In this document: positions 7,429-21,638 of the stretch, in pieces
How positions within the stretch are numbered: the first letter of the stretch is position 1
Layout: each line of letters begins with the position of its first letter
Virus record (IMG/VR): IMGVR_UViG_3300025652_000531
Coordinates: 1-24,343 of that record
Reading direction: 5' to 3' (one strand)
From: a virus
Length of the DNA stretch: 24,343 nt
The notes under the pieces: model-generated
Databases searched by the model: none
Seen by the model: only the letters and a program-made list of their open reading frames with translations
What the model was told of the DNA's origin: nothing
Made by a program: the position numbers and the translations under genes

Positions 7429-7442
7429 AATTTTCTCCTAAT

Positions 7443-7472
7443 AAAAAAGCCCTACAGTTTTCACCATAGGGC
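7443..7472 (-). terminator. Intrinsic terminator just before the tape-measure gene
   Basis: On the minus strand a GCCCTA / TAGGGC 6-bp stem (7467-7472 with 7449-7454) with a 12-base loop is followed directly by TTTTTT (7448-7443). It fills the 50-base gap between the gp10-like stop and the tape-measure ribosome binding site. It would end most late transcripts before the longest gene and so lower its yield relative to capsid and tube genes. The function is inferred; the structure is seen directly. Confidence 0.75.
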
Positions 7473-7478
7473 CTTTGA

Positions 7479-7796
7479 TTACTTGTACTCTACCAAAGAG
7501 CCCTTTGGCTTACCGTGGCGAAGCAGAACAGACTCGATAAAGAAAGCAGGGGCTTGTTTTGATGAGCCTGCGTTCAACATCTTGACGTATTCTTGTGAAT
7601 TGGTTACAGTTGCGGTTTTCTGAGTTTTAACAGTTTCCCAGCTACTAGCTGCAAGGCCGGTCAAGACTGGCGTGTCAGCTGCGAGTTCTTCAGCCACCTG
7701 ATTTACAGTACCTTCAAACTCGTCATAACTCTTTTTTCTTACTGCTGCTTTTATATTTCGCAGCTCCTCTTCATACTTCAAGGATATCTTAATCAT
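7479..7796 (-). CDS. HK97 gp10-like tail-completion / head-tail joining protein
   Basis: A 105-residue protein. Residues 39-53 (AADTPVLTGLAASSW) and 70-90 (YVKMLNAGSSKQAPAFFIES) match the HK97 gp10-like pattern: a DTG.L..S strand, a Y.k.L..G segment, then a proline/aromatic segment before the last helix. Proteins of this family join the head and tail or complete the tail at the neck. It starts within the last 8 bases of the chaperone T frame, with a strong GGAGGAGGA site upstream, so translation is probably coupled. Its place between the chaperone and the tape measure is unusual; the family normally sits between head-closure and tail-terminator genes. Family assignment is by motif only. An alternative is an unrelated tail assembly factor. 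Confidence 0.6.
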   Translation of the reverse strand: MIKISLKYEEELRNIKAAVRKKSYDEFEGTVNQVAEELAADTPVLTGLAASSWETVKTQKTATVTNSQEYVKMLNAGSSKQAPAFFIESVLLRHGKPKGSLVEYK

Positions 7797-10474: not shown

Positions 10475-11566
10475 TTATGAGTGAAAGATTGGAAGGATGC
10501 CCAAGTTCAGAGGGTCAACTTTACGATTCCAGCTAGCAGCTGCCGCCAGAGTGGTGTTGCTTGCGAAGGCAGAAGTGGAGCCAGCCCAGTCGTAACCGAG
10601 GGGGTGAGCCACAAAGCCGTAGCGGTACCAGATGTCGGTCGAACCACCACCTGCGTAAGCAGCGGCGTCACGGTCGACTTCGGTTGCAACAGGCATCGGG
10701 ATCTCAGCGAACGCGATGGAGTTTGGCTTAACCAAGAAAGTTGTCTTGTTGGACTGCGCGTTGACATTCGCACCAGCGGACAGGTCACCCTGAGCTGCGC
10801 GGGTCATCAGCAGACGGAACTTGCCACCAAAGATTGTCTGGAAGGTCATGTTGCCGTCCTGGATACGATCTTCGTCAACGAGGTTAGCTGCGCGGAGGTC
10901 AGCCATGATCTCAGGGGACGTGATCATATAGACATAGTCGGGCTCGTAGTCCTTGTAGAACATACCCATTGCACGGAAGAGACGCTCACCACGAGCAGCA
11001 CCTGTGGCACCTGAGTCGATCAGTTTACGCTCATCGTTTTCACCAGTCGCAGCAGCACCGAAGGCACCGTTGGAGTTGACGTCAATGAAAGCACCTGTGT
11101 CGTTGTCAGGGATTGTGTCGAAACCGACGATGCCTGCACCGACTGCAGCTTCGGAAGCCGCTACACCTTTGAGGGCAGCGAGGATCGCAGCGTGCTCGTC
11201 TTGAGCGCGAGACTCAGCGAAGCTACGGGCGAAGTACGCCAGACCGTCCTGCTGAGAGATGATACGCTGCAGGTTGACCTGCTTCGAACCGATTGTGCGA
11301 GCTGACTTGATGTAGTTCGCGATGTCGGTTGAGATCTCTGTGTAGGAGCCGTCAGCTGCGTTGCTCAGGGAAGCAATGTTGACGGTTGCATCGAGTGGTT
11401 TATACCAGCGCATCTGACCCGTGAAGCTTTCACGTGACGTGTCGATGTCTGCACTACCAGTAACCATACCAGTGGAGTTGATTCGTTTCTCTTCTGTCCA
11501 ACGCTCTTGAGCGTAGCTAGAAATCGCTAGTGCGACGTTTTGAAAGTTTGTGTTTGTAATAGCCAT
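10475..11566 (-). CDS. Major capsid protein
   Basis: A 363-residue protein. An N-terminal helix region (FQNVALAISSYAQERW) is followed by GQMRWYKPLD and a long alpha segment (QQDGLAYFARSFAESRAQDEHAAILAALKGV). A YVYMITSPEIMADLRAANLVDE block, as in P-domain/spine regions of HK97-fold capsid proteins, and a C-terminal VAHPLGYDW segment complete it. The VxHPxGYxW end is common in phage major capsid proteins of this size (MCP 13-like group, from memory). It follows the scaffold gene and precedes the connector. AAGG lies eight bases before ATG 11566. It is alanine-rich and looks strongly expressed. The HK97 fold is inferred. Confidence 0.9.
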   Translation of the reverse strand: MAITNTNFQNVALAISSYAQERWTEEKRINSTGMVTGSADIDTSRESFTGQMRWYKPLDATVNIASLSNAADGSYTEISTDIANYIKSARTIGSKQVNLQRIISQQDGLAYFARSFAESRAQDEHAAILAALKGVAASEAAVGAGIVGFDTIPDNDTGAFIDVNSNGAFGAAATGENDERKLIDSGATGAARGERLFRAMGMFYKDYEPDYVYMITSPEIMADLRAANLVDEDRIQDGNMTFQTIFGGKFRLLMTRAAQGDLSAGANVNAQSNKTTFLVKPNSIAFAEIPMPVATEVDRDAAAYAGGGSTDIWYRYGFVAHPLGYDWAGSTSAFASNTTLAAAASWNRKVDPLNLGILPIFHS

Positions 11567-11587: not shown

Positions 11588-12271
11588 TTAGTAAGTAATA
11601 GAGCCCAGCTTACCCTGTTCAGCTAGACGCAACAGATCTTCTGTTGAGACACCTTCGAGAGTTTTAGGACGCCCAGTACTTGTACTAGAGTTGTTTGTTG
11701 ATGTTCCTGTACCGGAATTATCTTTGGGTTTAAATAGAAAGTCTTTGTCGGGATCTTTACGGAATGCCTTGATGTAGTCACCAATAGGGGCACCCGATTT
11801 ATGAACCCAACGCTCATCATCATCTTGAACTAGTTCTGAAACGATGGCTTTGAAGGCAGTCTCCTTAGCGAATTCGTTCTTGAACTCAAGCCCGCCCAAA
11901 TAACTATCGAGTTCCCGATCGCGAGTCAGGGACGTCAATCGCTCATTGAGGATCTTGTTTGTTTCTTCATACTCTGTCAGCTTCAAGTTAGCAACCTCTA
12001 GGTGCTTCCCTTCAGCCTCGAGCTGTTTACGTTTTTCGGCCTGTTGATTCTCTTTCAGTCGTGTATTTTCACGAGCGAGTTCTTCAGCTTTCTTGTAAGC
12101 TTTGTCAACATTGCTTTTCATTTTGCCTAGACGATCTTCAACAATCTTTTCAATCATGTCAGCATAATCTTCTGACAGCTTTTGTTTTGTTGTTGTATCT
12201 TGATTATCGTCAGTGGTCTGTGTAGTTTCTTTATCTAGTTCGTCTTGAGGTTCATTAGCTTCATCAGCCAT
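11588..12271 (-). CDS. Capsid scaffold protein
   Basis: A 227-residue, very charged protein from ATG 12271 (MADEANEPQDEL). I prefer this to the in-frame GTG 21 bases upstream because AAGGA lies ten bases before the ATG. Residues ~1-40 are acidic and disordered. Residues ~41-120 form a predicted coiled coil rich in K, E and L. A globular or helical stretch (YLGGLEFKNEFAKETAFKAIVSEL) follows, then a Ser/Thr/Asn/Gly linker and a short C-terminal helix (STEDLLRLAEQGKLGSITY) that could bind the capsid protein. This is the classic plan of a head scaffold placed directly before the capsid gene. Confidence 0.85.
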   Translation of the reverse strand: MADEANEPQDELDKETTQTTDDNQDTTTKQKLSEDYADMIEKIVEDRLGKMKSNVDKAYKKAEELARENTRLKENQQAEKRKQLEAEGKHLEVANLKLTEYEETNKILNERLTSLTRDRELDSYLGGLEFKNEFAKETAFKAIVSELVQDDDERWVHKSGAPIGDYIKAFRKDPDKDFLFKPKDNSGTGTSTNNSSTSTGRPKTLEGVSTEDLLRLAEQGKLGSITY

Positions 12272-12299
12272 AGTTTTATAATCCTTCTGCACACAGTGC

Positions 12300-12411: not shown

Positions 12412-12471
12412 GGTCCTGCTACCCTTCTTTATCGTTACCTGGTGGTTATTCCAAAAAGTGAGGAAAATGAT

Positions 12472-12528: not shown

Positions 12529-12903
12529 ATGAAAGCTAAAGTAAACAACCCTGCAATGACCGAAGCAATGAAAAAGGCTTTTGAAAAGCCAATGACAGAG
12601 TGGGTTCATAAAGAGTTGAGCCTTCTCCGTTTTCACCCAGTTTGGATTACTACTACCATGCTTGTCGCAGCGGTTGGTGTCTACTCTTTGGGTGGAACTC
12701 TTGCAGCTTCCACTGCAGCTCCCGCGCTTATGATTCCTATTGTAACAGGCATCTTCGGTTGCGGGATTGGCTTGCTTATGGCGAGCCTTGAAACCACTGT
12801 TCACTCAGTGGTCTACGACTATATCACGCCTGCCATCAGCGGCGCGTATGACTACCTGGCCTCTTGGTTCGCCAGTGAAGAAGAACCAACAGTCGCAGCC
12901 TAA
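12529..12903 (+). CDS. Small two-helix membrane protein, unknown
   Basis: A 124-residue protein with AAGGA eight bases before the ATG. Residues 1-36 form a polar, basic N-terminal helix (MTEAMKKAFEKPMTEWVHKEL). Two hydrophobic segments follow, about 38-60 and 63-86, rich in Ala, Gly and Val. An aromatic-acidic tail (YDYLASWFASEEEP) ends the protein. It is the first gene of the plus-strand cassette. The next gene repeats the same plan, with a similar W/Y-acidic tail, so the two may be ancient paralogues. Holin, superinfection exclusion or other membrane roles are possible; I do not recognise the family. Confidence 0.8.
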   Translation: MKAKVNNPAMTEAMKKAFEKPMTEWVHKELSLLRFHPVWITTTMLVAAVGVYSLGGTLAASTAAPALMIPIVTGIFGCGIGLLMASLETTVHSVVYDYITPAISGAYDYLASWFASEEEPTVAA

Positions 12904-12913
12904 GGAGCGTAAG

Positions 12914-13228
12914 ATGACTACCTCAAATGACACTAACAACTTCCAAGCAACAGCACAAATTGTTGCGGCCATCAGTCTGGGTGCATTCCTGGGTACGACG
13001 GCTTCAGCAGCACTGCTACTCCCAGTGATGGGTGTGGCAATCAACACTACGTACCTTGCCTACATTACTGTAGTGGGTATCGCAGTTGGCGTAGCGGTGA
13101 TGGAGATCGCCCTCCCGTCAGTCTTTAGTATCGTTAATAGTACCAGCGAAGCCGTGGTTGCAAGCTGGAATTACGTCTCAGATTGGTGGTATCAAACACC
13201 TGAAGAAGAAACAATTAAGGCCCAGTAA
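12914..13228 (+). CDS. Small two-helix membrane protein, second member
   Basis: A 104-residue protein from ATG 12914, preceded by AAGGAGCG; an in-frame upstream extension to 12767 would overlap the first gene and lacks a ribosome site. A polar N-terminus (residues 1-11) is followed by two long hydrophobic segments, about 12-42 and 46-70, then a WNYVSDWWYQTPEEE tail. The order 'membrane, membrane, aromatic-acidic tail' mirrors the preceding protein. The ribosome site and first codons nearly match those of the fibre gene at 21638 (AGGAGCGTAAGATG shared). Function unknown. Confidence 0.8.
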   Translation: MTTSNDTNNFQATAQIVAAISLGAFLGTTASAALLLPVMGVAINTTYLAYITVVGIAVGVAVMEIALPSVFSIVNSTSEAVVASWNYVSDWWYQTPEEETIKAQ

Positions 13229-13246
13229 GAGGCCCAAGGACTTTTT

Positions 13247-13336
13247 ATGTTAGAGAAACTACTAGCTACCATGGTTAAGATCTGCGTTCAGCTGATTTTG
13301 ACAAGACTAGAAATTTGGTGGAGAAAACATGCTTGA
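13247..13336 (+). CDS. Tiny 29-residue amphipathic peptide
   Basis: MLEKLLATMVKICVQLILTR then LEIWWRKHA. AAGGA lies seven bases before the ATG. The stop overlaps the next start (ATGCTTGA), a sign of translational coupling. The peptide is helical and amphipathic with one cysteine. Its reality is supported by the ribosome site and tight packing, not by recognised homology. Confidence 0.55.
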   Translation: MLEKLLATMVKICVQLILTRLEIWWRKHA

Positions 13337-13397
13337 TTACTTCGTATTCAAACTTGTATCCGCCTTCTTCCTGATGTTAGTTAAATCTCTTTCCTAA
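13329..13397 (+). CDS. Tiny 22-residue hydrophobic peptide
   Basis: MLDYFVFKLVSAFFLMLVKS then LS. A single hydrophobic helix spans nearly the whole peptide, enough to span or lie in a membrane. It starts within the last 8 bases of the previous ORF, with GGTGGAG five bases upstream of its ATG. Function unknown; a toxin-like or lysis-timing peptide is conceivable. Confidence 0.5.
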   Translation: MLDYFVFKLVSAFFLMLVKSLS

Positions 13398-13406
13398 GTC
13401 GAAAAC

Positions 13407-13430
13407 CGGGCACCTAACGGTGACAGCCCG
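13407..13430 (+). other. RNA hairpin between tiny plus-strand ORFs
   Basis: CGGGC, ACC, loop TAAC, GGT, then four unpaired bases and GCCCG form a two-part stem. It is followed by purines, not T, so it is not a terminator. It may shield the mRNA or set translation of the 37-residue ORF downstream. Confidence 0.4.
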
Positions 13431-13446
13431 AAAGAATCGAGAAAAG

Positions 13447-13560
13447 ATGTTAAACATTCTGTTCAATCACATGATTCATGGAGTCATCTTCTGTTTTAGA
13501 AAGGCAGATCACTACCCGGCTACCCTGATACCAACCCTTAAAAGACTTGAGAGGAAATAA
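13447..13560 (+). CDS. Small 37-residue peptide, unknown
   Basis: Hydrophobic N-terminus (MLNILFNHMIHGVIFCF) followed by a basic tail (LKRLERK). GAGAAAAG precedes the ATG, a weak ribosome site. The stop lies one base before the next ATG, and the Shine-Dalgarno of the next gene is inside its last codons. It fits the cassette pattern of short membrane peptides, but the evidence is limited to frame, packing and composition. Confidence 0.45.
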   Translation: MLNILFNHMIHGVIFCFRKADHYPATLIPTLKRLERK

Positions 13561-13561
13561 A

Positions 13562-13747
13562 ATGACTGGTCTTTATAACGTAACCCTCACAGCATTGCAA
13601 TATGGTGTGATTACTGGAACAACACTCGTGGTTGTACCCGCCTCATTGGCAGTCGCTCTTATCTGCCAAGCATCTGACATTGTAGTCGACGGACTAGAAT
13701 GGTTGAAGATCAATGGGGAAGGTGCAGCTAATGCCGAAGTTGGATAA
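13562..13747 (+). CDS. 61-residue single-helix membrane protein
   Basis: Starts at ATG 13562 with AGAGG seven bases upstream; a TTG 15 bases earlier is less likely. Residues ~13-36 are strongly hydrophobic (YGVITGTTLVVVPASLAVAL), and the C-terminal 20 residues are polar. One membrane helix with a cytoplasmic or periplasmic tail is likely. It overlaps the next gene by 17 bases, so translation is likely coupled. Family unknown. Confidence 0.7.
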   Translation: MTGLYNVTLTALQYGVITGTTLVVVPASLAVALICQASDIVVDGLEWLKINGEGAANAEVG

Positions 13748-14157: not shown

Positions 14158-17100
14158 TCATGGCCCAAAACCGTAACGGTTATAGCCTGGTTTAAGTGGT
14201 TGAAGTATCTCAGCGCTAGAAAAACCTTCGCTGATAAATCCTTTTTCGTAAGCTTCCTCTAAATACTTTTCGTATACGTCTTTCGGTAACCCTTCTTTTC
14301 GCAGAGCATCCAAAGTTGCCTTGATGTTGTTGAAGTCTCTAGCTCGCGCATACACTTCGAACATGGAATCGATGCCCTCTTCTAACTCGTTGATATTCAT
14401 AAAAATAGCATCGTGAATTGTAGAGGTTCCTAGTCCTCGTTTGAGCCCTTCCAGATGGTAGCCTCTAACAAGAGACGCATCAAGAGCGTGGTTACCGTTC
14501 ACCCCGAAACCAAGGCGAACATCGCCAATGGAGCCCTTACCGAGAAGCTTACCGTCTTCCGCAGACATCTGGTAGATGTTACGTATATAACGCTTAGACT
14601 CTGGGTCATAGAACCGGATTTCTTGTTGGATCTTTGGTCGGTATCTTTGCATCAGGACTTTGTTGTCAAAGGTGACCCAAGGAATGTCTACTTTACCAGT
14701 AGTCAAGGTGTATTCTTGAGCAACTCGCTTCCAGAACTCGATGTAGGTGTTTGCAACAGGCGCTCGTTCAGTTAGCTTTTCTGACATGATGTTAGCGATC
14801 TGCTTGAATTCCTCAGGTCCGATAGTAGGTCCACGAGTGTTAGTGTACTTACGAACGAGGTCTGCGACATCAGGATGGATCTCTTCAGCCTCTGACAACA
14901 TTGCAGCACCGATATTAATATCATGTTTTTCAACCATGTCCGTTAGCTCTCGCCTGAATTGTTTGAGAGAGTCAGCTGTTTCAAAGGCACCAATGTTCTC
15001 AGCATCCTTGATTTTCTGGTCGACAATCTTTCTGAACCCAAGAAATTCTGCTCGTGTTGTGAGAGTAACATCTTGCTTTCTAAGAACTTTTGCCAGTTCA
15101 ACAGCCACTCGAGCTCGCTGTCCCGTCGCACCAGCACCATAGAAGGCGATCATAACTTGATACTTGGAGGCCTTTGAAAGGTCTTCCCATGTCAGGTCCA
15201 TCCCGAGTTCTTCCATCATCTTCTGAAAGCGGGGGTCAGCAACTGCATCTTGAGCAACAAGATCGTAGATCCGGTTCTTACGTGTGGTTGGCATGACGTT
15301 ACTGGTCAGAGCAGCACCACGGTTTCCTGTAGAAAGCGCAATTACCTGTAGACCACTAGCTGAAGCGTCTGCTTCTCCCATCAGCTTAGACTTGAAGGTA
15401 CTAAGAGACTTGGCATCGAATCGGCCACCAGTGTGTTTATGGATGCGATAGTATTCAAGGGCGAAACGTGCAATCTTAGCGACTTCCTCCCCTTCAATCG
15501 ACTGCATGAAAGGGTCTGTCAGGAACTCTCGGATACGACGATCACGCTGTGTGGTGTGAGACATGATCTCGCCTACACGGAGAATAGACGCTTCATGACG
15601 CTTAAAGATTGCCATACGGCCAGCATCTGTGAGCGCCTCTGTTCCGGGTCCGATGACTGACGCCATTTGGATTTGGATCTGATGCAGACCCTTTGGTGTC
15701 ATCGCTGTTGCCTTTGCTGAATTCAGGAAGGGCCGGACAACTTCACCACCTGTAGGTGTCAGGTAGCCGTTGTAGTAGACACGGCCACGTCCATCAATGC
15801 GGGCAGGTACTGTGAATTTCTTACCGCTGCTATTGTAATAACGTATAGTTTCCATGAGTCCGTACCCTTGGTCACCTCTTCGAATGATTTCCTCACGGAA
15901 TGTATTAATTTCATCAAAGTACTCAGCCTTTCCTCGTTGATCTTTGAATCTAACTACGTCATCCATGAAACTAGCGAAGGTAGGGTCTACCTCGTATTCA
16001 AGAGACATAGTATGGTTCAACATGTCCGCAAAGTCTTTATCAAGCTGTTTGGCATCAAACTTTTCGTAGGCAGAACGTGTGATAAGTGGGATACCTGTGT
16101 CGTTACCCCTGCCATCAATGTAGTTCTTATTACGAGCTACTGCATACAATTTATTAACAGGTCGATCAATACCAACTCGGTTAGCCAGCTGAAATTTACG
16201 AGAGGCGAACTGCAAACGCAACATATCTGGGTCAAGTACTTCAACTTCACGAGAGACAGTATCTCTCCAGTTACCGGAGAAACGACCTGTATCAAGATCA
16301 ATAGTAGCTCGTCGAGTAACACCACGAGAGTTGACGCGGATTAGCCCTTGATCACGAAAGTGAGTCAGAATAGCGGAGCCTTCTCGATGGAAGTCGCTTA
16401 GGCTGGCCCCCATATGGGTTGATGCACCCGGCCACTGTTTCTTCAGTTGTTTACCGAGGTTAATTGCTAGACCATCGTAGTCAGTCATACGACCTGCGGC
16501 AATAGTCTCCATTAGCCCAGACATAACCTTGATAGAGTCTTCCGCTCTTGTACCTTTTTCAACTTGACTGATTAGGCTGTCGGCTAGGGACTTGCGTCGG
16601 CCTCCAAGAAGGAACTCTAGGTCAATAATGTCACGGTAGGCTTCTCTGACAGAACGTCTGAGGAAGTTCATTACCCCCTCTTGAGAGAGGGTCTCAAGAA
16701 ACTTGTAGTAAGGTACTTTACCCTTGACCTTACCCTCAATATGCTCCTTGATGATTTTTGACCATTTGTCAGGTGTCTTACCAAAGCGAGTGTAAAAGGC
16801 TACTGGATCTTTTTTGTAAAACAGTTCACGTACACTACGTTTGTAGAAGGAATCACGAAGTTTGCCAGTCAAACCCCCCGCCCCTCTCGAAGGTCTAAAG
16901 AAGTAGGCTCCCCATGGGGCTTGGCCCTTATAGAATAGCTTACGCGCCATCGGTCGCCCAAACTGTGTAGACCAGTTATTGATGAACCTCTGATTTCTCA
17001 GCTTCTCAGCATGTAACTGTGCAATTGTAACCTTTTCACCCATGATCATTACGCTAGGCTCTTTAGGATCACCACGGTATGACATGAACAACTCAGAGCG

Positions 17101-18687
17101 AGCGCGTGAGCGTCTGTCTAGAAGACGAGAGGTGTTAACAACTGAGAAGTTCTGTTCTGTTCGGAAGACTTTCACAAAGTCGCCCCAAGGTTCACGGTTC
17201 TTTTCGTATCGTTCGAAGAGTACGCGGAGATTCTCAACCACTGCAGTACGCTGGTTGATTGAGACTTGTTCTCCGAGATCCTCAGCAAACTCTTGTATGA
17301 ACTTCTTCTGACGTATGTTCAGGAGTTTTGACTCGTTCATGTAGTCAACTCTCTCCTGATAGAGGTTAAAATCAGGATCGTAAAAGAGTGTAGATTTAGA
17401 CTCGCCTGTGAACGGGTCGAAGCTATTATTACGGGGGTCATACTGGTTGTTAACCCTGCGTCGTACGGTCCTCTTTCCCATCAGAGTGGTGCCCCTGAAG
17501 TCTGTAAGAGACAAGGGCTGCCCCGCATTGCTGGTATCAGCGATGACTAGAGCCTTGAGAGTCTTCTGTAACTTCCTTGACTGTACAAGTTGGTGAGGGC
17601 GGGAAACACCAAGGAACACGCTAGAGGGGTCGGTCTTTAGTTGTCTGGTTGGACTGAACCAAGTCAGCAGGTTGTCCTGAACTCGCAAAGCAGCGAGGCT
17701 AATAGGGTTACCCTTGGCTGTGAAGAACTTCGTCAGATCGAGAGCACCATTTTCAAACAATGCAACCTTCTCATCTGAATCGAGGTATTTACGCTTAGTA
17801 TCGTGCGACTGTCTACGCAACCACTCAGAGAAAGATTCCTTGAGAGGCATAGAGCCAGGGAGCTTATCTTCGCCGAGACCCCTGAGAACTTCTTTGTTGA
17901 CACGGGGGTCATTACCTTCTAGCAGAACCGTCTTGGACTTGAGTACAGGTACAAGCGTGGAACGACAATTCCAGTGAAGAGGAGGGCGAACCTTTAGGTT
18001 TTCACGAGTTTGAAAGAGACCATCGTAGGAGCTGCAGAGTGTTGACGTACGACTATCGAGGATGGCAGTGAATACAAAGCCACTGATAACGCCAGCATTG
18101 TCGTCGTAGAGTCTTTCCTTGACGAGCTGCTCGGCTCTTGTCATGTTTGTTGTAACAAGGGTTTTGGCTTGGTTCTCGGTCAGCTTAGACGCCTTCATAA
18201 CGTCTTGTATGATATCAGCCTGCGGACGCCCATCGGAGATACCTCTACGGATCTTTAGTTGGATCGTAGTTAGCTGCTTGTTACCAATGGAGTTAAAGGC
18301 AGACTGCATAGTCCCGTGAGTACGATCCTCGAAGGCGAGCTTCAGAGGCGACCGTGAAATCACTTGAGCAAGCTCTCCTCGGGAGGGTGTCTGTACTCGA
18401 TAGAAGTCTTTCACTGAACGTTTAAGACTGTTAGTTTGGAAGTCGATCTCAGCTCCAAGGAAGTCGTCTACTGAGCTACGTGAGAGGCCATAGAGCTCTT
18501 GCACGTGCTTAGTTACTTCCCTTTGTATATCGGGGTTATTATGTCTTAGATCTTTTCGGAGCAATGTCTTCAGACTCAGCCTATGTCGCTTAGATTCCCT
18601 CTCGATGAGGACTCGTGCTGATTCGGAATAGCGACGAGTAAGAATCATATGCTCGACTTGGCGGTCAAACAACTCTTGGGATAGCAT
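14158..18687 (-). CDS. MuF/SPP1 gp7-like head protein fused to single-subunit RNA polymerase
   Basis: A 1509-residue protein. Residues ~130-250 form a MuF/SPP1 gp7 head-morphogenesis domain: TRAEQLVKERL helix, DSRTSTLC (D211, C218), YDG (D222), then PPLHWNCR (H238, C241, R242). The C-terminal ~550 residues carry the single-subunit RNA polymerase signatures: DGRGRVY at 965-971 (T7 DWRGRVY), motif A DASASGLQ with catalytic D1107 (T7 D537), motif B K1175..VM...Y1183-G (T7 K631..Y639), and motif C H1425-D1426 (T7 HD812). Every catalytic residue is present. About 700 residues between the two parts match nothing I know and could hold a promoter-recognition or N-terminal polymerase domain. MuF proteins are minor capsid proteins near the portal, and some enter the cell, so a packaged, injected polymerase is the likely role. 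The start ATG 18687 has AGGA six bases upstream and directly follows the peptidase stop. Confidence 0.9.
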   Translation of the reverse strand: MLSQELFDRQVEHMILTRRYSESARVLIERESKRHRLSLKTLLRKDLRHNNPDIQREVTKHVQELYGLSRSSVDDFLGAEIDFQTNSLKRSVKDFYRVQTPSRGELAQVISRSPLKLAFEDRTHGTMQSAFNSIGNKQLTTIQLKIRRGISDGRPQADIIQDVMKASKLTENQAKTLVTTNMTRAEQLVKERLYDDNAGVISGFVFTAILDSRTSTLCSSYDGLFQTRENLKVRPPLHWNCRSTLVPVLKSKTVLLEGNDPRVNKEVLRGLGEDKLPGSMPLKESFSEWLRRQSHDTKRKYLDSDEKVALFENGALDLTKFFTAKGNPISLAALRVQDNLLTWFSPTRQLKTDPSSVFLGVSRPHQLVQSRKLQKTLKALVIADTSNAGQPLSLTDFRGTTLMGKRTVRRRVNNQYDPRNNSFDPFTGESKSTLFYDPDFNLYQERVDYMNESKLLNIRQKKFIQEFAEDLGEQVSINQRTAVVENLRVLFERYEKNREPWGDFVKVFRTEQNFSVVNTSRLLDRRSRARSELFMSYRGDPKEPSVMIMGEKVTIAQLHAEKLRNQRFINNWSTQFGRPMARKLFYKGQAPWGAYFFRPSRGAGGLTGKLRDSFYKRSVRELFYKKDPVAFYTRFGKTPDKWSKIIKEHIEGKVKGKVPYYKFLETLSQEGVMNFLRRSVREAYRDIIDLEFLLGGRRKSLADSLISQVEKGTRAEDSIKVMSGLMETIAAGRMTDYDGLAINLGKQLKKQWPGASTHMGASLSDFHREGSAILTHFRDQGLIRVNSRGVTRRATIDLDTGRFSGNWRDTVSREVEVLDPDMLRLQFASRKFQLANRVGIDRPVNKLYAVARNKNYIDGRGNDTGIPLITRSAYEKFDAKQLDKDFADMLNHTMSLEYEVDPTFASFMDDVVRFKDQRGKAEYFDEINTFREEIIRRGDQGYGLMETIRYYNSSGKKFTVPARIDGRGRVYYNGYLTPTGGEVVRPFLNSAKATAMTPKGLHQIQIQMASVIGPGTEALTDAGRMAIFKRHEASILRVGEIMSHTTQRDRRIREFLTDPFMQSIEGEEVAKIARFALEYYRIHKHTGGRFDAKSLSTFKSKLMGEADASASGLQVIALSTGNRGAALTSNVMPTTRKNRIYDLVAQDAVADPRFQKMMEELGMDLTWEDLSKASKYQVMIAFYGAGATGQRARVAVELAKVLRKQDVTLTTRAEFLGFRKIVDQKIKDAENIGAFETADSLKQFRRELTDMVEKHDINIGAAMLSEAEEIHPDVADLVRKYTNTRGPTIGPEEFKQIANIMSEKLTERAPVANTYIEFWKRVAQEYTLTTGKVDIPWVTFDNKVLMQRYRPKIQQEIRFYDPESKRYIRNIYQMSAEDGKLLGKGSIGDVRLGFGVNGNHALDASLVRGYHLEGLKRGLGTSTIHDAIFMNINELEEGIDSMFEVYARARDFNNIKATLDALRKEGLPKDVYEKYLEEAYEKGFISEGFSSAEILQPLKPGYNRYGFGP

Positions 18688-19140
18688 TTAGCTTCCTTTC
18701 ATTTTTGTTTCAAATTTTTCCGTAACCTCTTTATGTAGCTCCCTGACAGATAACCGCCAGGGGTCTTGGAGGCCCAGGACTTGGCCAATGAGAGCACTAC
18801 AATGGATCCTGTCTTTTCGGTTACGACCTAGGCGAGTGATGGAGAGGATCGCCCCTACTGTGTCGTATCTCTTTCCCAACGACCCGAGAGAGATAGTCAG
18901 GGGGTCACTGGGGAGGCTGTGAGTCACCTCCATGATGTCCCAGTGGTCTGGGTTCAAAGTGAGCTGTTTGATACGGACTTGGTGGTTGTCTCGTTTAGAG
19001 GCCGAGAGGATAGTCCAAGAGCCGTCTGAGTTCTCTTCTGCGATCTCGACATGGCTATAGTCGCCGCCATCGAACAGGCGGATCAAACGATCCACCCATC
19101 GGTCTGTGCCCTTGTACCAAAGGAGGTATGTTTTCTTCAT
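18688..19140 (-). CDS. YiiX/YebB-type permuted NlpC/P60 papain-like protein
   Basis: A 150-residue protein with the circularly permuted papain-like order: an N-terminal active His in YSHVEIA (H30), strands, KRYDTVGAIL (residues 90-99), then the nucleophile Cys in IHCSALIGQVLG (C114). Members act as amidases, peptidases or lipid-acyl hydrolases; phage copies are often called cell-wall hydrolases. Both catalytic residues are present; no signal peptide is seen. It overlaps the preceding small gene as ATGA and touches the MuF-polymerase start, so they are made together. It could cut peptidoglycan during infection or lysis, or process the adjacent fusion protein. Confidence 0.78.
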   Translation of the reverse strand: MKKTYLLWYKGTDRWVDRLIRLFDGGDYSHVEIAEENSDGSWTILSASKRDNHQVRIKQLTLNPDHWDIMEVTHSLPSDPLTISLGSLGKRYDTVGAILSITRLGRNRKDRIHCSALIGQVLGLQDPWRLSVRELHKEVTEKFETKMKGS

Positions 19141-19374: not shown

Positions 19375-19680
19375 CTAGACAAACAGGCCATCAACTTGAC
19401 TGTCAGTTAGGCCAAGCTGTGCTTTTAGGACGTAAATCAACGGGGCATCCCTGCGAATATTTGGCGTTGATAGGGCCTCAACTTTTGCCTCAAGTGTCGC
19501 CAGATACGGCTGCACAAGCGCAGGCAGACTATTACCGCCCGCCCAATTTTCCGCCTCGGCCTCTGTGATCAAACCAGCATTGTATGCTCTGACCGCAAAT
19601 TGCCCGCGCGTTGTCACCATCGTTGCGCGCTTATGCTCAAGGATTTTTTCTGCCAGTTCGGCTGGGGTTCTCTTAGCCAT
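19375..19680 (-). CDS. Small helical protein after the fibre gene, unknown
   Basis: A 101-residue, helix-rich protein. It has an N-terminal amphipathic segment (RTPAELAEKILEHKRA), then FAVRAYNAGLITEAEAENWAGG, a leucine-rich helix (LVQPYLATLEAKVEAL) and LKAQLGLTDSQVDGLF. The last segment resembles a short EF-hand-free helix-turn-helix, with no metal ligands. It overlaps the 652-residue fibre gene as TGATG, which points to a fibre accessory or assembly role. I do not recognise the family. Confidence 0.7.
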   Translation of the reverse strand: MAKRTPAELAEKILEHKRATMVTTRGQFAVRAYNAGLITEAEAENWAGGNSLPALVQPYLATLEAKVEALSTPNIRRDAPLIYVLKAQLGLTDSQVDGLFV

Positions 19681-21638
19681 CAGGACACCTTCACTTTCAG
19701 ATTTTGGGCTGCATTGGACGTGATCCGCACTGTGGTGCTGTCGGGGTAATCAAATTCGTAATCTGTACCCAAAACAGCACCTTGGTTGAGGGCGTTTGCA
19801 TCGTAGTCGATTGTCACGCCGTTTGATGAGGGGACGGACGGAGAAGCTGACGCCATATAAAGCGCAACCATCAGGTCAAGGTCATCGCCAAGAACGTAAT
19901 GATTAGCGTCTGCAACAGCTTCAAGCTGCGCTTTATCCATCCGGTTTGACGCTACTGACAACGCCTGCTGTAGCGCATCAAGTTCTGCGTTTGTTGTTGC
20001 GGCTGTCCATGTGGTGCTGGCGTAGGTTGCATTTGAATTATACTCCCACGTTCCAGTGTTATTGCGCACAATATCCCGCTCGCCGCTTGTGTTGTCTATG
20101 ACAGTCCACGTTGTCCGGTTATCTGTCGAAACAGCGTAAAAGGCATCGCCTGCACCTTTGACCTCACTGGCGACCATTGAATTAATGTCAGTCCAGAATG
20201 TGCTATCAATTTGCCCGTATACGTTTGTAATAGCAGGGGCATATTGAGATGTTGGGTTTTTAGATGCACCGATGTTGTACTCATAGACGTTATCACCTGT
20301 AGACCCAACAACATACATTTTCAGGCCATCTGGCTTGAAGAACAATCCCTGTGGAAATGTATCTTGCGCAGAAGCATTAAAGTTCCGCACATAGGACGCA
20401 GTAGAAACATTCCAAGCGGTACTTAGATTGTACTCATTAACGGTATTACCACTGCTTCCGACAACATACACTTTCAGACCATCTGACCTGAAGAACAATC
20501 CCTGTGGGTTTGTATCTTGCGCAGAGACACTAAAGTTCTGCACATAGGACGAGGTGGAAACATTCCAAGCAGTGCTTAGATTGTACTCATTAATGTCATC
20601 ACCTGTAGACCCAACAACATACATTTTCGTACCATCTGGCTTGAAGAATAGTCCGTTTGGGTTTGCCTCTTGCGAAGAAACACTAAAGCCCCGCAAATAA
20701 GACGCAGTAGAAACATTCCAAGCGGTACTTAGATTGTACTCATTAACGTCGTCATTCCCAGTCCCAGTAGTATACATTTTCGTACCATCTGGCTTGAAGA
20801 ATAGTCCGGTTACGTTTGTCTCTTGCGTAGAAGTATCAAATTTCTGCACATAGGACGCAGTAGAAACATCCCAAGCGGTACTTAGATTGTACTCAATAAT
20901 GTCATCGAGCGCGCCAACAACATACATTTTCGTACCATCTGGCTTGAAAAATAGTCCTTGAGGGACTGCCTCTTGCCCAGAGACACTAAAGCTTTGCAAA
21001 TAGGACGCAGTAGAAACATTCCAAGCGTCACTAAGGCCAAAACTTAATTCAAGGCCGTTGGTGGCGTCAAAAACAGTGGCATACATACCCCAGTCACCAG
21101 ATGCGATGGCGCTCGTGTCCGTGAACGGGGTGACTAGATAATAGCTGCCATCAACATTGGTCAGGACCGCTGAACCACCATTTCCTTCGATTGTTTTGCC
21201 CACATCCCCAGCCGCGAATGAACCTGTGCCAAGCGTGAAAGTACCGTCCGCAGTTGCGCTAGAGGGCGTGATCGTGGTTGCATACGCTGTATCAAGACGC
21301 TCGAAATTGTAACCATCTATTGCAACGTCCCATTGGCTGCTAGATACCCCTGTTTGCGGCACCTCTTTGGTCACAGTCACCGTTGGCGCGTTGCCTGCAC
21401 CGGCACTTAGGGCAATGGTCGAGGTTTCGTTGCGAAGGAATGATTTTGTCAGCGTTCCAAGCGTTGAGGTGATGCCAAGGTTTGTTTTTGCTGCATCTAC
21501 ATCTGTCAGATCGGACAGGTTGTTTCCGACTGCCGCGTAATCCGTTGCCGCCGTTGTCGCTGCGGTGCCAAGGCCAGACACATCAGCAGCGTCAATGGCT
21601 GCACGTCGGCTCGCAAGTGTTTGTGATAAAGTAGCCAT
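19680..21638 (-). CDS. Tail fibre with propeller-like repeats
   Basis: A 652-residue protein. Residues 1-110 are a typical fibre linker region (DVSGLGTAATTAATDYAAVG, LSDLTDVDAAKTNLG). About residues 110-195 form a beta domain (ATADGTFTLGTGSFAAGDVG). Five tandem repeats follow (~200-460), with the core GLFFKPDGTKMYVVG, then NEYNLSTAWNVSTASY. Such F-x-P-D-G-x-x-M-Y / Y-x-L-S-x-A-W repeats fold as beta-propeller blades, here used to bind a host surface ligand. The C-terminal 190 residues contain a beta stretch and a helix (NAELDALQQALSVASNRMDKAQLEAVADAN). AGGAGCG precedes ATG 21638. It is a host-recognition candidate. Whether five blades close a full propeller is unclear, since trimerisation could complete it. 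Confidence 0.82.
   Translation of the reverse strand: MATLSQTLASRRAAIDAADVSGLGTAATTAATDYAAVGNNLSDLTDVDAAKTNLGITSTLGTLTKSFLRNETSTIALSAGAGNAPTVTVTKEVPQTGVSSSQWDVAIDGYNFERLDTAYATTITPSSATADGTFTLGTGSFAAGDVGKTIEGNGGSAVLTNVDGSYYLVTPFTDTSAIASGDWGMYATVFDATNGLELSFGLSDAWNVSTASYLQSFSVSGQEAVPQGLFFKPDGTKMYVVGALDDIIEYNLSTAWDVSTASYVQKFDTSTQETNVTGLFFKPDGTKMYTTGTGNDDVNEYNLSTAWNVSTASYLRGFSVSSQEANPNGLFFKPDGTKMYVVGSTGDDINEYNLSTAWNVSTSSYVQNFSVSAQDTNPQGLFFRSDGLKVYVVGSSGNTVNEYNLSTAWNVSTASYVRNFNASAQDTFPQGLFFKPDGLKMYVVGSTGDNVYEYNIGASKNPTSQYAPAITNVYGQIDSTFWTDINSMVASEVKGAGDAFYAVSTDNRTTWTVIDNTSGERDIVRNNTGTWEYNSNATYASTTWTAATTNAELDALQQALSVASNRMDKAQLEAVADANHYVLGDDLDLMVALYMASASPSVPSSNGVTIDYDANALNQGAVLGTDYEFDYPDSTTVRITSNAAQNLKVKVS
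20265..21040 (-). repeat. Five coding tandem repeats of ~153 bp
   Basis: Within the fibre gene the unit recurs every ~150-153 bases. Blocks two units apart are the most alike: 48 bases are identical at 20395-20442 and 20701-20748, and 31 bases at 20292-20322 and 20598-20628, both 306 bases apart. This suggests duplication of a two-blade segment. Confidence 0.85.

Follow-up and report, generated by a model that had tools for sequence, protein, structure and literature searches.

A MuF Head Protein Fused to a T7-Type RNA Polymerase in Mostly Aquatic Long-Tailed Phages: A Candidate Virion RNA Polymerase

The gene described here encodes an N-terminal MuF/SPP1-gp7 minor head domain and a C-terminal single-subunit RNA polymerase in one reading frame (MuF-RNAP). 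It was found in a 24,343-nucleotide stretch of viral DNA (IMG/VR record IMGVR_UViG_3300025652_000531, positions 1 to 24,343; hereafter the window). We consider it likely that the product is a virion RNA polymerase, held at the portal by its MuF domain and ejected with the DNA for early transcription. The fusion, the conserved active site, the predicted fold, the place in the head operon, and a second RNA polymerase in relatives are consistent with a virion-borne early polymerase. Phages with this fusion form a large, previously unrecognized, mostly aquatic long-tailed group. A literature search that included few subscription papers, such that a prior mention is possible, found no published description of a MuF-RNAP fusion.

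Gene Layout and Domain Assignment

The 1509-aa open reading frame (14158..18687, minus strand) starts with ATG and has no internal stop codons; its parts are listed in Table 1. The MuF half matched PF04233 (residues 141-245, E 7e-8, exceeding the curated Pfam cut-off), TIGR01641 SPP1_gp7 of NCBIfam (residues 145-248, E 4e-12, exceeding the cut-off), and the head morphogenesis family phrog_241 (residues 4-338, E 2e-48). The polymerase half matched PF00940 RNA_pol (residues 1093-1428, E 1e-7, exceeding the Pfam cut-off) and the RNA polymerase family phrog_414 (residues 937-1199, E 4e-20). An initial annotation, made from the letters of the window, had read both halves in this way, and the profile matches above cut-offs bear this out. 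The MuF residues it named (D211, C218, H238, and C241) and the four polymerase motifs lie where it placed them, in one uninterrupted 1509-codon frame.

Comparison of the MuF model with known structures found nothing beyond helical-bundle look-alikes (maximum Z 11.6), and the MuF alignment, used as a profile query against PDB sequences, gave no match. The MuF assignment therefore rests on the sequence profiles. Phmmer with the single MuF-RNAP protein against the PDB returned nothing useful.

Table 1. Features of the MuF-RNAP gene and its surroundings in the window.
Feature	Position	Strand	Basis
Major capsid protein	10475..11566	(-)	phrog_247; same place in relatives
Head scaffolding protein	11588..12292	(-)	phrog_206; same place in relatives
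Putative T7-type phage promoter CCACCAGGTAACGATAAAGAAGGGTA	12420..12445	(-)	Reads into scaffold and capsid genes; resembles the DSS3_VP1 16-copy motif
MuF-RNAP fusion gene, 1509 codons + stop	14158..18687	(-)	Profile matches and full-length homologues
Single-subunit RNA polymerase (predicted), residues 556-1509	14161..17022	(-)	PF00940, phrog_414, AlphaFold2 model vs. T7 RNAP
Motif C, residues 1423-1426 (TIHD), predicted catalytic D1426	14410..14421	(-)	Invariant; aligns with T7 HD 811-812; L077 and L078 have an intron here
Motif B / O helix, residues 1175-1186 (KYQVMIAFYGAG), K1175 and Y1183	15130..15165	(-)	Invariant; group I intron site in relatives
Motif A, residues 1105-1114 (EADASASGLQ), predicted catalytic D1107	15346..15375	(-)	E1105 and D1107 invariant; aligns with the T7 D537 motif
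DxxGR motif, residues 965-971 (DGRGRVY)	15775..15795	(-)	D965, R967, R969, and Y971 invariant in 25 homologues
Helical linker domain, conserved, residues 341-555, without a known-fold match here	17023..17667	(-)	T7 RNAP structural alignments begin at about residue 554; purifying selection
MuF / SPP1 gp7-like minor head region, residues 1-340	17668..18687	(-)	PF04233, TIGR01641, phrog_241; AlphaFold2 pLDDT 88
MuF core, residues 141-245	17953-18267	(-)	PF04233

Predicted Fold of the Polymerase

Modeled with AlphaFold2 (mean pLDDT 79, pTM 0.70), residues 340-1509 adopt a right-hand, T7-type single-subunit polymerase fold, as the initial annotation had expected. The model aligned with T7 RNAP at Z 30.0 (526 residues, 3.6 Å), with mitochondrial RNA polymerases at Z up to about 27, and with the N4 virion polymerase at Z 16.4 (510 residues, 3.9 Å). 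Structural alignments with T7 begin near model residue 215, which is residue 554 of the protein, and on this basis we assign residues 1-340 to MuF, 341-555 to a helical linker, and 556-1509 to the polymerase.

Profile comparisons with the family alignment (A2) matched T7 RNAP (E 2e-10, hhalign probability 97%) and a Foturvirus RNAP (E 1e-9), with a probability of 0.1% for N4 mini-vRNAP, a weak comparison in which the target was a single N4 sequence. By these profile alignments, D1107 and D1426 would be the equivalents of T7 D537 and D812, and the equivalence of motif B is likewise predicted from the alignment to a Foturvirus RNAP. The markers of N4 vRNAP (PF21894, PF21769, PF21867, PF21624, and phrog_2206) were absent from MuF-RNAP and from the other members scanned, whereas all five matched N4 mini-vRNAP.

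The initial annotation had judged the motif spacing to be nearer to N4 than to T7, and the two spacings it quoted (R969-D1107 138 and K1175-D1426 251) are arithmetically right. Residues were read from the sequences, with the N4 motif positions taken to be R424, K670, Y678, and D951, and E557 as given in PMC4496689. The R-D distance (138 in MuF-RNAP, 135 in N4, and 112 in T7) and the K-D distance (251 in MuF-RNAP, 281 in N4, and 181 in T7) are in line with that judgment; the D-K distance of 68 is nearer to T7 (94) than to N4 (111) and goes against it. A kinship with N4 was not supported, given the Z of 30 for T7 vs. 16 for N4 and the absence of the N4 Pfam domains and phrog_2206. By fold and domain content, MuF-RNAP is not a member of the N4 vRNAP family, though it may function like N4 vRNAP.

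Conservation of the Active Site

Conservation was assessed in 25 non-redundant full-length members with 25-61% identity to the window protein, varying by region. Invariant residues were D211, C218, H238, and C241 in MuF and D965, R967, R969, Y971, E1105, D1107, K1175, Y1183, G1184, T1423, H1425, and D1426 in the polymerase. The DxxGR motif, the motif A Asp, the motif B K...Y-G, and the motif C H-D occur in the same order as in T7-type RNAPs. Because the key residues are invariant in homologues down to 25-31% identity, a chance motif match is ruled out. Where dS was usable, pairwise dN/dS was about 0.03-0.2, with similarly low values across the MuF, linker, and polymerase parts. The active site is intact and conserved, the gene is under purifying selection, and the protein is predicted to be catalytic. 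In place of the motif B arginine of T7 (R627, at K-4), MuF-RNAP has an invariant lysine at K-3 (K1172), and the details of catalysis may therefore differ.

These observations bear on the view that the protein is structural only, with a non-catalytic polymerase fold kept for packing or for binding DNA. Phage records that name the protein do call it a head protein. Strong purifying selection and the invariance of D1107, K1175, Y1183, H1425, D1426, and R969 across the 25 divergent members argue against a purely structural role, which we regard as very improbable.

Head Operon and Surrounding Genes

The conserved gene order in relatives is (TerL), portal, MuF-RNAP, scaffold, and major capsid protein. 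In the clade of the window, tail-fiber genes are inserted between the portal and MuF-RNAP; for this reason, the window itself holds no portal gene, which would lie beyond its right edge. Further downstream in the window are genes for an adaptor (phrog_477), a major tail protein (phrog_158), and a tape measure of more than 2400 codons (PF20155). These genes indicate a long-tailed phage.

Several neighboring genes were also noted. A gene at 18688-19140 (minus strand) ends directly ahead of the MuF-RNAP start codon and matches phrog_1128 (enoyl-CoA hydratase-like); by eye (SHVEI ... HCSALI), its product resembles a permuted NlpC/P60-type papain-fold hydrolase. Among the tail-fiber genes, 19680-21638 (minus strand) encodes a probable beta-propeller protein of 652 aa in which FFKPDGTKMYVVG-like units recur. 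Small opposite-strand ORFs lie between MuF-RNAP and the scaffold gene (12529-13747, plus strand), one with a weak holin match (phrog_1129). The terminase large subunit of phage DSS3_VP1 (L002:3143-5163) is annotated as two genes around an endonuclease VII gene and is in one piece in DSS3_PM1; the DSS3_VP1 split is possibly an intron.

Distribution and Constancy of the Fusion

Among phage records, full-length tblastn matches to MuF-RNAP were found in roseophages DSS3_PM1 and DSS3_VP1 (44% identity; DSS3_VP1 in two records), and EBPR siphovirus 1 matched at 31% identity over 81% of the protein. The homologue occupies the same place, between portal and scaffold, in all three phages (DSS3_VP1 and DSS3_PM1 belong to Naomviridae). 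Their records call it "head morphogenesis", "minor head protein-like protein", "head protein", or "hypothetical protein" and leave the polymerase half unannotated.

A search of viral contigs with the single MuF-RNAP protein gave no match, and an alignment query was required; this query found 80 MuF-RNAP loci. A second alignment query, limited to the polymerase half, matched at least 585 encoding stretches in viral contigs; 80 of them were retained. Among loci from both searches, MuF and the polymerase N-terminus shared one ORF in all 145 testable ORFs (4 further ORFs, cut by a contig end, stand outside this count), and there were no cases of the polymerase without MuF among the loci tested. 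An artefact, with neighboring genes joined by a frameshift or the contig being chimeric, has a negligible probability: nothing was found in its favor, and it is refuted by two sequenced isolates, with many independent metagenomes showing the fusion in the same unbroken form. In a collection of bacterial and archaeal genomes with one genome per species, a relative was present in a single bacterial MAG (two contigs). This near-absence fits lytic phages.

Variants of the gene were observed as well. One member ORF (L048:764-6280) encodes 1839 aa, approximately 330 residues more than the window protein, with an uncharacterized C-terminal extension. Group I introns interrupt the MuF-RNAP gene in several loci, singly in L003:22942-23168, L064:3157-3476, and L081:5716-5941 and in pairs in L077:6014-6309 and 7429-7707 and in L078:13146-13402 and 15296-15518. 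The insertion sites are within or next to motif B; L077 and L078 have a further one directly past the motif C HD. Most hold a homing-endonuclease-like ORF (annotated as HNH in L003). Similarly, gp47 and gp49 of EBPR siphovirus 1 are a single gene, split in motif B by a group I intron.

The Pelagibacter phages Kolga and Aegir (L115:5740-7641 and L116:7740-9641) encode a homologous MuF protein of 633 aa, with a zinc metallopeptidase-like domain, as tested for Kolga, at the C-terminus where the polymerase would be. With such a domain in the same slot, the head gene has the appearance of a carrier for cargo.

Second RNA Polymerase and Promoter Motifs

Besides MuF-RNAP, the genomes of DSS3_VP1 and DSS3_PM1 and six contigs (G003, G005, G010, G011, G012, and G013) encode a second, canonical RNAP. 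The remaining contigs searched carried MuF-RNAP alone and are partial; the window record is a 24-kb fragment without a second RNAP. In DSS3_VP1 and G003, the second RNAP lies near replication genes. In two contigs it is in pieces (G011:C1:43386-46423 and G012:C1:72095-74148), possibly split by introns again. An origin of MuF-RNAP by duplication of the second RNAP was considered, and a recent duplication is unlikely: the MuF-RNAP profile matched the second RNAP at E 2.5e-4, more weakly than it matched T7 or the Foturvirus RNAP.

A 26-base T7-type promoter-like motif with the core ATAGGKTRCGTTAAAGARGGGGA occurs in 16 copies in DSS3_VP1 (NC_055826 2239-73990) and in 15 copies in DSS3_PM1. Every copy is on the gene strand, and for DSS3_VP1 shuffled sequences gave zero. 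This motif family is unannotated in both records. A degenerate form of the motif in metagenomic relatives (score >= 16) gave 21 sites, 20 of them on the gene strand, vs. 2 in shuffled sequence; the 21 come from partly overlapping loci and include 13 distinct sites. The candidate promoter in the window (Table 1) has a 24-base core identical to one in the same place in the closest relative, L119, and by the DSS3-derived matrix alone it is not significant, as 17 of 200 shuffles reach its score. A de novo search of intergenic motifs in the contigs of the window's clade (G001-G003) gave AT-rich noise only.

In DSS3_VP1, no copy of the motif was found in the few kilobases immediately upstream of the second RNAP gene, a pattern that would be in keeping with another enzyme initiating its transcription. 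Sigma-70-like promoters and terminators upstream of the second RNAP gene were at shuffle level and decide nothing, and the 513-nt gap ahead of it held no convincing hairpin promoter.

Alternatively, MuF-RNAP might be a late intracellular polymerase that works in the producing cell, for instance by boosting late transcription near assembling heads, with packaging incidental and the enzyme perhaps cleaved from MuF first. The location of the gene in a late structural operon and the candidate phage-type promoter directly downstream in the window and in L119 would suit such an enzyme. It would be redundant, however, with the separate second RNAP of several relatives, and a free late enzyme needs no fusion to a portal-associated head protein, yet the two are fused in all 145 testable ORFs. 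Given the second RNAP in relatives and a fusion never broken in the loci tested, we think a late intracellular role unlikely.

Discussion

The proposed virion RNA polymerase would act as follows. The MuF half would be made late, alongside the other head proteins, and by family resemblance to SPP1 gp7-type proteins it would dock on the portal from inside as the head is assembled, and so bring the T7-type RNAP (residues about 556-1509) into the particle next to where the DNA leaves. When the phage infects a cell, either the whole fusion or just the polymerase half would exit with the DNA through the tail and transcribe early genes from phage promoters. Early transcription would include, or lead to, the second, free phage RNAP, which would then serve middle and late genes; the division of promoters between the two polymerases is part of this proposal. 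Counting against a virion RNA polymerase is the need for a protein of ~170 kDa to cross a siphovirus-type tail, presumably unfolded.

Transcription-coupled genome entry is used by T7. It has also been described for N4 (PMC4496689), and this invites the thought that an injected MuF-RNAP mainly pulls the genome in by transcribing or forms part of a DNA conduit. The portal-side position of the gene fits such an ejection motor or pilot protein. This idea overlaps with the virion RNA polymerase, as packaging and active RNA synthesis are equally required, and we hold a primarily motor or pilot function to be improbable.

N4 vRNAP (gp50, Schitoviridae) and MuF-RNAP are both large single-subunit-type RNAPs encoded among virion genes, with a second phage RNAP in the genome (for MuF-RNAP, in relatives). 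They also share a Glu two residues ahead of the motif A Asp (E557/D559 in N4; E1105/D1107 in MuF-RNAP) and an Arg 16 residues past the Arg of DxxGR/TxxGR (N4 R440; MuF-RNAP R985). N4 E557 contacts the initiating nucleotide, and N4 pairs its virion vRNAP with a second phage enzyme, RNAPII (PMC4496689). In contrast, the N4 enzyme lies within a 3500-aa polypeptide and has the motifs TRVGR and IFDG, whereas MuF-RNAP is joined to a MuF head protein in the head operon of a long-tailed phage, has DxxGR and HD in the T7 form, and has a predicted fold much nearer to T7 (Z 30 vs. 16). N4-like virion RNAPs have been stated to occur in N4-like phages only (PMC5512222).

With T7-type RNAPs (PF00940, phrog_414), MuF-RNAP shares all four motifs and, in the model, the right-hand fold. 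What sets it apart from them is its fusion to a head protein, the place of its gene in the head operon, its longer motif B-C region, and its divergence (about 15% identity). MuF proteins joined to effector domains that are believed to be injected are an established pattern (Iyer et al. 2017, PMC5512222). MuF-RNAP has in common with these fusions and with SPP1 gp7 proteins the D...C...H..C signature and a gene near that of the portal, and with the fusions an enzymatic domain as a C-terminal extension; here, the extension is an entire RNA polymerase.

Virion RNAPs also occur in phiKZ-like jumbo phages (PMC10612078). They resemble the scheme proposed here in that a virion-borne polymerase starts early transcription and, in phiKZ, a second phage RNAP acts on later genes. 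Virion RNAPs of crAss-like phages likewise start early transcription. The enzymes of both groups are of the multisubunit (double-psi beta-barrel) type, unlike T7-type enzymes.

More broadly, MuF-RNAP may represent an independent origin of virion RNAPs, in which a T7-type polymerase was recruited to the portal by fusion to MuF and a large, long-tailed aquatic family runs its transcription on two phage-encoded T7-type polymerases, possibly owing to uracil DNA in some members (DSS3_VP1 and DSS3_PM1). We regard the chances of this broader account as evenly balanced. In DSS3_VP1, reportedly first described in Current Biology in 2021, and in DSS3_PM1, uracil replaces thymine in the DNA. Contigs G002 and G003 carry a deoxycytidylate-deaminase relative, but a dTMP phosphatase gene was not identified, so the link to uracil DNA remains a suggestion.

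Virion RNAPs are known from a few lineages, and N4 is the well-studied T7-type case. If our reading is right, MuF-RNAP would be a second, separately built T7-type virion RNAP, reached by a different route than in N4, through a widespread head protein in the structural operon of long-tailed phages. The list of MuF cargo, so far one of effectors aimed at the host, would then also include the machinery with which the phage itself transcribes. The start of transcription in such phages, some of them with uracil DNA, would be explained. The family is also a source of new polymerases, together with a new class of promoters for use with them, and the proposed virion role is directly testable in the isolated phage DSS3_VP1.
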